This document shows positions 157-5,430 of a stretch of 64,000 nt of DNA, in pieces. The stretch is from Acidobacteria bacterium RIFCSPLOWO2_12_FULL_66_21 (GTDB lineage Bacteria; Acidobacteriota; Vicinamibacteria; Vicinamibacterales; 2-12-FULL-66-21), in the NCBI GenBank assembly GCA_001767455.1, contig MELC01000072.1, forward strand, positions 1 through 64,000, in the 5' to 3' direction. Position 1 is the stretch's first letter. Each line of letters opens with the position of its first letter. The notes beneath the pieces were generated by a model that was given only the letters and a program-made list of their open reading frames with translations, did not search any database and had not been told where the DNA came from. The position numbers and the translations under genes were made by a program.

Positions 157-897
157 ATGTTCAGCGCGTCGGCGGAGTTCTACGATCTCATCTACTCGAC
201 GTTCAAGGACTACGCTGCCGAAGCGCGGCAGATCGCCGACCTGCTGCGCCGGATCAATCCTCGCTGCGCCTCGCTCCTCGACGTCGCGTGCGGGACCGGC
301 GAGCACGCGCGGCTGCTGGCGGCAGAGGGCTTCACGGTCGACGGCCTGGATCTCGATCCCGCTTTCGTCGCGATTGCGCGCACGAAGCACCCCGCCGGGC
401 GTTTCTTTCACGCGGATATGAGCGACTTCCGCCTGCCGCATCGTTACGACGCGGTGCTGTGTCTGTTCAGCTCGATCGGCTATCTCCAGACTCTGGATCG
501 CATCACCGCGGCGCTGCGCTGTTTTCGCGAGCACCTCGCGCCCGGCGGCGCGATCGTCGTCGAGCCATGGTTCCCGCCGGGAGGGCTGAACACCGCTCGC
601 GTGGCGCGCAACACGGGCGAGGCAAATGGGGTGCGCGTCACGAGGACCAGCCGCGTGGAAGTGGACGGACGCCTGTCACGCCTCCATTTCGATTACGAGA
701 TCGCCGACGGCACCGGCACCCGGCACGCGAGCGAGATTCACGAACTTGGCCTCTGTACGCCAGCCGAAATGCTCGATGCATTCCGGGACGCCGGACTGGA
801 AGTCGACTTCGATCCAAAAGGCCTCACCGACCGCGGACTCTACGTCGCCAGGAGCGCCTGGCGCGACACGCTCAGACCGGCGAGCCACGAGCCGTAA
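157..897 (+). CDS. SAM-dependent class I methyltransferase
   Basis: LLDVACGTGEHARLL motif I, DAVLCLFSSIGYL; ATG at 157 preferred over 70. Confidence 0.85.
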   Translation: MFSASAEFYDLIYSTFKDYAAEARQIADLLRRINPRCASLLDVACGTGEHARLLAAEGFTVDGLDLDPAFVAIARTKHPAGRFFHADMSDFRLPHRYDAVLCLFSSIGYLQTLDRITAALRCFREHLAPGGAIVVEPWFPPGGLNTARVARNTGEANGVRVTRTSRVEVDGRLSRLHFDYEIADGTGTRHASEIHELGLCTPAEMLDAFRDAGLEVDFDPKGLTDRGLYVARSAWRDTLRPASHEP

Positions 898-1897
898 ACG
901 GGTGTGCCGGGCGGCGCACGAACAGGCCAAGCGCTTCGACGCCGAGCGCGGTGGTCAGTTCCCGCGAGCCGAACCACACGGTCAGCGGTCCGGGAGGAGG
1001 GGGGCCCGCATAAAACGCCTCACAGGCCCACCCGCCGTCGGCGCCCTGCCGTTCGAGGAGCCGCTCGACCAATGCGCGCCGGGGTTGTTCGCTCGATACG
1101 CCATCGACTCGCAACAGCGCGGAGAGGGCGAGCGCGGTCAGCAGGTCGCTTCCCGCGACGTCGCCTCGTTCGAGCCGCGCCAGGATGCGTGGGGCCAGCA
1201 GCCGCGACGCCTGTTCGAAGCGCCCGACGGTGGCGCCCGCGCGGGCCACCGCGTGGTAAAGAGCGAGGTCATCGACGTAGTATCGATGGGAATTCTCTTC
1301 GCGCCCATGCTCGAGCAGGTCGATGACGAAATCGATCGCGCCCTGTGTCGCCGGGCCGTCGCCCAGATATCGCGCGACGTTCGCATTCACGACGCTGTCC
1401 ACGTCGTTCCGGGGCGGTGCCACTCCAAACCACGTGTAGAACCGCCCGGCCGGATCGCGGTGGCGCAGGAGCGTTTCCCGGTTAGCGGCGAGAACTCCGG
1501 CCGTCTCCGTGCCCGACCCCCTCAGCGCGACTGATGCGCAGGCCGTGTCGTCGGCATCCGCGGGAATGGCGCGGTCCGGGCGCACCCGCCAGTAGCGCCA
1601 TCGTGCGCCGGGTTCCATCTCACCCAGGAGGAAGTTCTGCGCGTTCCGGATGGCGCCCGCGACATCGCCCGTATCCGCCACGCGAAACGCCTCAATGGCG
1701 AACGTCGTCGCGAACGGCGTGGGATCGCGGCGCGACACGCGCATGAGGCGGTCCCCGCTGACGTGCATCGGCAGCTCACCGCTCTCCAGCTGACGCGAGA
1801 GCAGGAAGCGGACGGCGCGCTCGAACGCGGCCCGTACTTCCTCAGCCGCCGGGATCGCACGCGAGTCCACGTCGACGCTGCGCATCGGGCCCTCCAC
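872..1897 (-). CDS. Prenyltransferase/squalene-oxidase repeat (alpha/alpha-barrel cyclase-like) protein, last gene of RiPP operon
   Basis: FLLSRQLESGELP, LLERQGADGGWACEAFY repeats; 9 bp downstream of the permease gene. Confidence 0.7.
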   Translation of the reverse strand: MEGPMRSVDVDSRAIPAAEEVRAAFERAVRFLLSRQLESGELPMHVSGDRLMRVSRRDPTPFATTFAIEAFRVADTGDVAGAIRNAQNFLLGEMEPGARWRYWRVRPDRAIPADADDTACASVALRGSGTETAGVLAANRETLLRHRDPAGRFYTWFGVAPPRNDVDSVVNANVARYLGDGPATQGAIDFVIDLLEHGREENSHRYYVDDLALYHAVARAGATVGRFEQASRLLAPRILARLERGDVAGSDLLTALALSALLRVDGVSSEQPRRALVERLLERQGADGGWACEAFYAGPPPPGPLTVWFGSRELTTALGVEALGLFVRRPAHPFTARGSPV

Positions 1898-1906
1898 GAC
1901 GCGCCG

Positions 1907-4294: not shown

Positions 4295-4311
4295 GGACAC
4301 CCCACCTGCCG

Positions 4312-5430
4312 TCAGCCGATTCGTCTGCCGTGCTGTGCCACCAGTATGCGGCCCGCAGGGGCTTCTGTCGAGCGCACCCCCGGAGATACGCCGTCGCACG
4401 CCGGACCGCGCCGCTCCGCGGCTCCAGCGCCGCGAGCATGCGGAGCGGTCTGGAGGTTCATCTCCCGCAGCGCCTTCCTGAAGTCCGCCTGTGTGGCGTA
4501 CGCCCGGGCCGTGGCGGTGTCCAGGCAGCTCGACCACGTGCTGGAGCCGACGGGCGCCGCGGCTGCCTTTGCCTGCTCGAGGTATCCGAGCATGTCATCG
4601 AGATACCGATCGAGGAGGCCCGAGCAGTAGATGGTCGTGCGGATCGCGGACGGCCGCCGCGGTTCCGGAATGTCCTCCAGCTTCGTGCGCCGCTGGAGTT
4701 CTTCAATCGCCGCGGTGAGCAGGTAGGAGAAGCGGTTGTTCGCGAAGTCCTTCTTCCAGTCGCGGAGATCGTCCAGCATCGAGTCCGCGAGCCAGTAATA
4801 GTCCAGCGAGCGCGCCAGCGGTCCGCGCACCGACGGACGCCCTCCAATGACACACAGCGCGGACGTGATCGTCTTCGACACCGCGCAGCGGCGCGAGACG
4901 ACGCGAATGAGGTCCGCGCGCGTGTACGGCTGCGGACCGTGCCGGTGATCGCGGCACTCGACATACACGGCCGCGTTGTATTGATCGTACTGCGCGACGA
5001 ATTCCTTCCACGGCATCCGGCGAGGGCCCATCGCGCGGCTCAACGCCTGCCATCCTCTGATTTGATAGGCGCCGCTCAAGAGGACCGCTTCGTAGGGTGG
5101 GGCGGCGGGCTGATCGAACAGCTCGTCGTTGATCAGGATGTGGTACAGGAGGAAGAGCGCGGCAACGGAGAGTTCCCGCACCTGTCCGAGACGGGCCTTC
5201 GGGAATGCGTCGCTGAACAGAAAAGGGAAATGGGTAAACAGGTTCTGCCCTGTTTCGACGCCGGGAAATCTCCTGAGCCACAGTCGATCGCGGAGCGCCT
5301 GGTAGCCCGGGATTCGCGCGCTCGCGCGCTCGAAGCGTGTCCAGGCGCGGCGGCCCTCCGCGGCGAGACGCTCGGCCGGCGCGATGGGGAGTGTATGAAC
5401 CGCCGGAACGCCGGCTTCCTGCGATCGCAC
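4312..5430 (-). CDS. Class I isoprenoid-synthase-like all-alpha protein of RiPP operon
   Basis: Asp-rich helix YYWLADSMLDDLRDWKKDFANNRFSYLL; GTG start at 5430 inferred; operonic spacing. Confidence 0.5.
   Translation of the reverse strand: MRSQEAGVPAVHTLPIAPAERLAAEGRRAWTRFERASARIPGYQALRDRLWLRRFPGVETGQNLFTHFPFLFSDAFPKARLGQVRELSVAALFLLYHILINDELFDQPAAPPYEAVLLSGAYQIRGWQALSRAMGPRRMPWKEFVAQYDQYNAAVYVECRDHRHGPQPYTRADLIRVVSRRCAVSKTITSALCVIGGRPSVRGPLARSLDYYWLADSMLDDLRDWKKDFANNRFSYLLTAAIEELQRRTKLEDIPEPRRPSAIRTTIYCSGLLDRYLDDMLGYLEQAKAAAAPVGSSTWSSCLDTATARAYATQADFRKALREMNLQTAPHARGAGAAERRGPACDGVSPGVRSTEAPAGRILVAQHGRRIG

Follow-up and report, generated by a model that had tools for sequence, protein, structure and literature searches.

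Why should a RiPP operon carry genes for an isoprenoid-synthase-like and a squalene-cyclase-like protein? The question is raised by the first 12.6 kb of the window (the whole analysed stretch, i.e. 64,000 nucleotides of contig MELC01000072.1 of Acidobacteria bacterium RIFCSPLOWO2_12_FULL_66_21), where such an operon lies on the minus strand. From the placement of the two genes among peptide genes, a sequence-only reading had raised the possibility of peptide prenylation or of a terpenoid-peptide hybrid. Both open reading frames, 4312-5430 and 872-1897 on the minus strand, were confirmed, and we designate their products as P (a probable peptide prenyltransferase) and C (a putative class II terpene cyclase), respectively. 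From sequence comparison and structure prediction, it is probable that P prenylates an aromatic residue of the peptide core and C cyclises the attached chain, the same peptide being modified by a radical SAM enzyme.

The operon (all features on the minus strand) is headed by the gene for a probable regulator, a sigma-54 response-regulator activator (11000-12556) with receiver, AAA+ and HTH regions recognised by inspection; comparable activators sit near the maturases of loci L038 and L035. Adjoining this gene is a weak sigma-54-like -24/-12 element, CGGCATACCGCTTGCT (10857-10872), ~40 bp upstream of the maturase start, with 9 of 12 consensus positions and the GG-N10-GC spacing; its score is unexceptional, as equal scores are found elsewhere in the window. 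The genes from the maturase through to C are packed into one close run, with intergenic gaps of -37 to +84 bp and a coding-type GC3 of 0.78-0.90, so they likely share a single transcript. Besides P and C, this run encodes four precursor peptides, an M50 intramembrane metalloprotease with the motif HELGH (6878-8161; NCBIfam daptide_HExxH, E=4e-27, below cut-off), a second M50-like membrane metalloprotease with HELSH (5439-6914; weak Pfam M50 matches, E 0.007-0.009) and, between P and C, an ADOP-type duplicated permease (MacB/FtsX; 1907-4294; NCBIfam TIGR03434 above cut-off, E=8e-223). The N-terminal extension of the first protease looks like a PqqD/RRE-like domain.

The maturase (9306-10817) is a radical SAM/SPASM protein with an N-terminal HGYTGA motif, detected by Pfam Radical_SAM (E=2e-11) and by the SPASM model TIGR04085 (38.9 bits against a cut-off of 27). 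Its best NCBIfam model, TIGR04463, scores far below the respective cut-off, and the identity with sister maturases is 28-31%. With CxxxCxxC and SPASM adjoining short precursors that have a common leader, the operon shows the features by which radical SAM RiPP systems are recognised. At residue 442 the window maturase has His, where four aligned sisters have Cys (SPASM CxxCxxxxxH vs CxxCxxxxxC), so the auxiliary Fe-S cluster may be ligated differently. The precursors, identified as open reading frames with the common leader, are p1 (9063-9302, core ...AACDWSCGEVC...), p2 (8745-8978, ...AACDWSCDSVC...), p3 (8443-8667, ...ASCDWSCSSVC...) and p4 (8176-8409, ...AACSWSCDRVC...); translation of p1 more likely begins at its fourth codon, an ATG. 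Their leader has the form IESLN...LSxEELEERLE and is slightly diverged in p4, whose LTVEELEERLE is common to p1-p3 and to sister loci. The Cys-rich cores start with (A)CxWSC, the Trp being invariant in all four.

Single-sequence searches of Pfam, NCBIfam and PDB with P, which contains LADSMLDDLRDWKKDFANNRFSYLL, gave no significant match, and homologues were therefore needed. A leave-window-out profile built from ten relatives matched P as the sole open reading frame of the window (E=1.6e-36 at Z=10000), and a profile of seven P family sequences matched, by sequence alone, the trans-isoprenyl diphosphate synthase 3oyr (E=2.5e-8). An AlphaFold (AF2) model was computed from the window sequence and six relatives (pLDDT 81.5, pTM 0.83). 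In a Foldseek search of PDB its best match was Ord1 (E ~2e-4, TM 0.63-0.71, probability 1.00), a tryptophan farnesyltransferase, and polyprenyl synthases came after the Ord1 structures. By this model, P is a protein of the all-alpha class I isoprenoid-synthase fold; an ABBA fold was rejected, as the model is all-helical. The Asp-rich helix, which had been regarded as typical of class I isoprenoid folds, indeed belongs to this type: both FARM (D102xxxD106) and SARM (D220DxxDxxxD228) are intact and kept in the relatives, the homologue in locus L051 deviating in the second half of SARM.

Nevertheless, P does not look like a canonical trans-isoprenyl diphosphate synthase, as it has no PF00348 match in Pfam, and the IPP-site motifs GKRxR and RRG were found in none of the 11 P sequences. 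The Gln feature of Trp prenyltransferases was looked for upstream of SARM and is absent from window P: three residues before SARM there is Ser, where 10 of 10 relatives have Gln. We therefore do not file window P as a strict Trp prenyltransferase; it is a homologue that likely acts much as these enzymes do.

For C (341 aa), a phmmer search of PDB revealed the beta domain of drimenol synthase 9mhs (E=4e-7, residues 97-325) and weak matches to squalene-hopene cyclases. The DADDT of C (DADD at residues 114-117) aligns over the DxDTT of drimenol synthase, in which the middle Asp (D333) is essential and its mutation abolishes cyclisation (PMC9128629). Both proteins also have FGSREL(T/S)TA in the C-terminal part, and D114 and D116 of C (the DxD) are invariant across the six aligned sequences. 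A leave-window-out cyclase profile matched only 872-1897 among the window open reading frames (E=7e-8, in three fragments). C may adopt a barrel fold, given its likeness in sequence to solved beta domains (the 9mhs match above), and a fused homologue matches such folds. What had been said of 872-1897 holds: its cyclase likeness is best supported by the intact DxDD and the drimenol synthase match, the repeats noticed in it being few and weak. The cyclase family profile matches 8pak (E=3.5e-69) and MstE (E=2e-34). Window C alone gave no single-sequence match to MstE, and it matches the C domains of fused homologues, which are of the MstE/monodomain type, only in pieces. All this points to a class II terpene-cyclase beta domain closest to drimenol synthases; we suppose that a class II cyclase of another type has here taken on the task that the MstE-like domains have in the fusions.

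How often P, C and the maturase occur together was followed in other genomes. At a threshold of 1e-3, a single-sequence search with P found matches in 3 of 396 genomes of the phylum, its own included. One of these matches, in G008, is a 702-aa P-C fusion inside a second operon of this kind; the maturase there is 34% identical, there are two peptides, and the M50 protease is 36% identical to the one at 6878-8161. When the phylum was searched with this fusion, its cyclase half gave most of the matches, to ~700-residue squalene-hopene-cyclase-like frames, and the result was set aside; a match in G107 (L003) was dropped because of an in-frame stop and a coverage of only 72 residues. NCBIfam 2026 has no model by which P, the P-C fusions or the precursors would be named.

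A GTDB scan was queried with five maturases and thus under-samples P homologues far from this maturase type. Here, the nearest maturase relatives are seven loci (E<1e-50). In four of them a P-C fusion adjoins the maturase, together with precursors and an M50 protease: L038 (a Bacteroidetes MAG), L040 (Acidobacteriota), L041 (Ktedonosporobacter rubrisoli, Chloroflexota) and L044 (Melioribacteraceae). The other three (L039, L042, L043) have no P-C alongside. Among the 73 radical SAM loci further away, P and C were seen in just one, L051 (Roseivivax lentus), where each has a gene of its own; the difference between 4/7 and 1/73 is significant (Fisher p=1e-4), though approximate, the test treating loci as independent. 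Furthermore, no P-C was found with the maturase sisters G246 (on a short contig) and G368 of the phylum, or in L036, apparently identical to locus L043. Altogether, fused P-C is present in five sister operons (L004, L038, L040, L041, L044), which provides a Rosetta-stone link for the split pair in the window. In the fusion of L040, the N-terminal half matches Ord1 and the C-terminal half monodomain class II cyclases including MstE. Being found beside some but not all sister maturases, P-C is a frequent, non-obligate partner of this maturase type.

Some of these loci have features of their own. In L040, the gene for a precursor in which CxxxC is repeated many times in a row (YCGADCGTNCVGNCPGNC...; 5273-5602) precedes those for the P-C fusion and a glycosyltransferase-like protein; a gene resembling the latter also comes after the maturase of Calothrix (L039). 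In L051 (9638-13247), a different radical SAM enzyme gene precedes the separate C (DADST) and P genes, and the two peptides have CDCDxxC cores without Trp. L036 (7360-12359) encodes two radical SAM/SPASM-type proteins in tandem, and its precursor cores are devoid of Cys.

P homologues also occur apart from radical SAM enzymes. Hymenobacter plasmids encode a minimal set of P, an M50 protease and single-Trp peptides, without radical SAM enzyme or C; the leader of these peptides is a reduced form (VEALDQRLET) of that of p1-p4. In the genome G139, P has as neighbours a Nif11/NHLP-like peptide and a LanM-like protein that is partial, both named by inspection. The Hymenobacter cassettes and G139 argue that P acts on peptides. 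In the Hymenobacter cassettes (L134, 7902-10229; L136, 4920-7516), the peptides are 47-51 aa long with their single Trp in ETAWS or TEIWS, and the proteins are annotated as hypothetical only. In L133 (7763-10433, minus strand), a P homologue lies between a Nif11/NHLP-like peptide of 69 aa, almost without a core, and a LanM-like protein of 472 aa, with an ABC transporter alongside. In L027 (2846-3796), a P homologue in which both the Asp motifs and Gln are intact stands alone beside a kinase gene, and no recognisable RiPP genes were seen in its surroundings.

In the pathway that we propose, P would use Mg2+ bound by the Asp motifs to ionise a prenyl diphosphate, which would then be attacked by an aromatic side chain of the core, most likely the invariant Trp of CxWSC. 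The chain transferred would be C10-C20, most likely C15 or C20; prenyl donors should be available, since the source genome possesses three polyprenyl synthases (PF00348) outside the operon. C, as a one-barrel class II cyclase, would then protonate the distal double bond through D116 and convert the attached chain to a polycyclic terpenoid. We prefer P acting before C because class II cyclisation of a free prenyl diphosphate leads to loss of the allylic double bond, which P would need. The same order is given for two fused enzymes, ChrPC and NctPC, in a review (PMC13290415). Separately, the radical SAM/SPASM enzyme would modify the Cys-rich core, probably by introducing thioether links, and the leader would be removed by the M50 protease(s). 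As P, C, peptides and maturase recur together in four phyla, the products are very probably peptides with a cyclised terpene. The proposal of peptide prenylation or a terpenoid-peptide hybrid has thus gained support from the P fold, the co-occurrence, the intact motifs of P and C and the reported ChrPC/NctPC precedent; the Ser of window P in place of Gln and the divergence of C count against it. Neither of the two outcomes named beforehand as refuting it, folds unrelated to isoprenoid enzymes or homologues that never accompany the maturase, was obtained.

We consider the chances of Trp being the acceptor in the window peptides to be somewhat better than even. It is favoured by the CxWSC motif, by the cores of L038, L041 and L044 and by the Hymenobacter peptides. 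The chance that P modifies the peptide at another residue, i.e. Tyr or a Cys thiol, is perhaps one to be taken seriously, yet clearly the smaller. The Ser at the Trp-recognition Gln position would fit it, as would the Tyr that replaces Trp in one of the five precursor paralogues of L041 and in the cores of G008 and L040, two fused P-C operons with only Tyr; Trp is therefore not a universal acceptor. On the other hand, the CxWSC Trp is invariant in 4 of 4 window precursors, and the characterised trans-IDS-like peptide enzymes all use Trp (PMC13290415). As a marker for P-C loci Trp is not supported, because some sister operons without P-C also have it.

Could P and C act on something other than a peptide? 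They might make a small free terpenoid (class II reaction followed by class I) for export or signalling. Class I and class II motifs together are the toolkit of bifunctional diterpene synthases, and the drimenol synthases, to which C is closest, give a free sesquiterpenol as their product (PMC9128629). We regard this as unlikely, however, as fused P-C recurs by peptide maturases in four phyla, P in Hymenobacter accompanies a Trp peptide and a protease in the absence of a cyclase, and the best structural match of P is the Trp prenyltransferase Ord1. That both proteins are catalytically dead or repurposed scaffolds (for leader binding or chaperoning) with the fold kept is very unlikely: although the sequences are divergent and P lacks the IPP-site motifs, the class II acid has been kept across four phyla, as have the Asp residues that bind the metal. 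Least probable of all is an accidental neighbourhood of RiPP genes with an ordinary polyprenyl diphosphate synthase and an enzyme of hopanoid metabolism. P weakly resembles polyprenyl synthases by profile, but it has neither GKRxR nor RRG, three bona fide PF00348 enzymes are encoded elsewhere in the genome, no PF13243 (squalene-hopene cyclase) match was found in the source genome, and the linkage to maturases is repeated; we therefore rejected this role.

The prenylation and cyclisation of a radical-SAM-modified peptide thus remains our preferred reading. More tentatively, and with the odds rather against it in this full form, the loci may represent a RiPP class, spread over several phyla, whose Cys-rich peptides are modified by a radical SAM enzyme and also carry a cyclised terpene, with possible non-Trp acceptors (such as Tyr for G008 and L040) and with a drimenol-synthase-type cyclase that might stand in, in the window, for the usual fused MstE-like domain. 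If true, terpene cyclisation chemistry would be joined with radical SAM peptide modification in one pathway, the separable P and C enzymes would be useful for tests of order and specificity, and the natural Trp/Tyr variation would allow the choice of acceptor to be worked out.

As far as we could establish, the first reports of cyclised terpenes on ribosomal peptides date from 2024, and only fused prenyltransferase-cyclases are involved in them. Among the Trp prenyltransferases, ComQ, PalQ and Ord1 share the all-alpha isoprenoid synthase fold with window P; unlike it, they possess the conserved Gln and have no class II cyclase partner, and the described ComQ and PalQ systems do not include a radical SAM enzyme. 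MstE and drimenol synthases of the AsDMS type share a DxDD/DxDTT acid motif with window C and have a single beta-type barrel, which C may also form. However, MstE acts on a prenylated dihydroxybenzoate, which differs from the setting of window C, and AsDMS is fused to a HAD domain, whereas window C has none and is paired with P. The closest systems, which the operon probably resembles in its mode of action, are ChrPC, in which a trans-IDS-like P and a C domain form one protein (Hubrich et al. 2024 Chem 10:3224, via PMC13290415), and NctPC, both reported in 2024 to catalyse prenylation and cyclisation on peptides (PMC13290415); the comparison follows the description given there. By this description, ChrPC likewise combines a P-type class I enzyme with a C-type cyclase on a ribosomal peptide, its acceptor is Trp (PMC13290415), which is also invariant in the window precursors, and its domain pair is that of the fused relatives L004, L038, L040, L041 and L044. 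In contrast, P and C of the window are encoded by separate genes with a permease gene in between, C is closer to drimenol synthases, the Gln upstream of SARM is replaced by Ser, and the operon includes a radical SAM/SPASM maturase, Cys-rich cores and M50 proteases. NctPC, as described there, is alike in that it transfers a prenyl group to Trp, on which a class II cyclisation ensues, but it consists of an ABBA-type prenyltransferase and an MstE-like cyclase domain, whereas window P is predicted to be an all-alpha class I protein. The literature searched contained no report of a RiPP with both a radical SAM enzyme and a prenyltransferase-cyclase. Compared with ChrPC and NctPC, what appears to be new is that a radical SAM enzyme is repeatedly the partner, that P and C are encoded separately with a cyclase of the drimenol type, and that the cores vary between Trp and Tyr.
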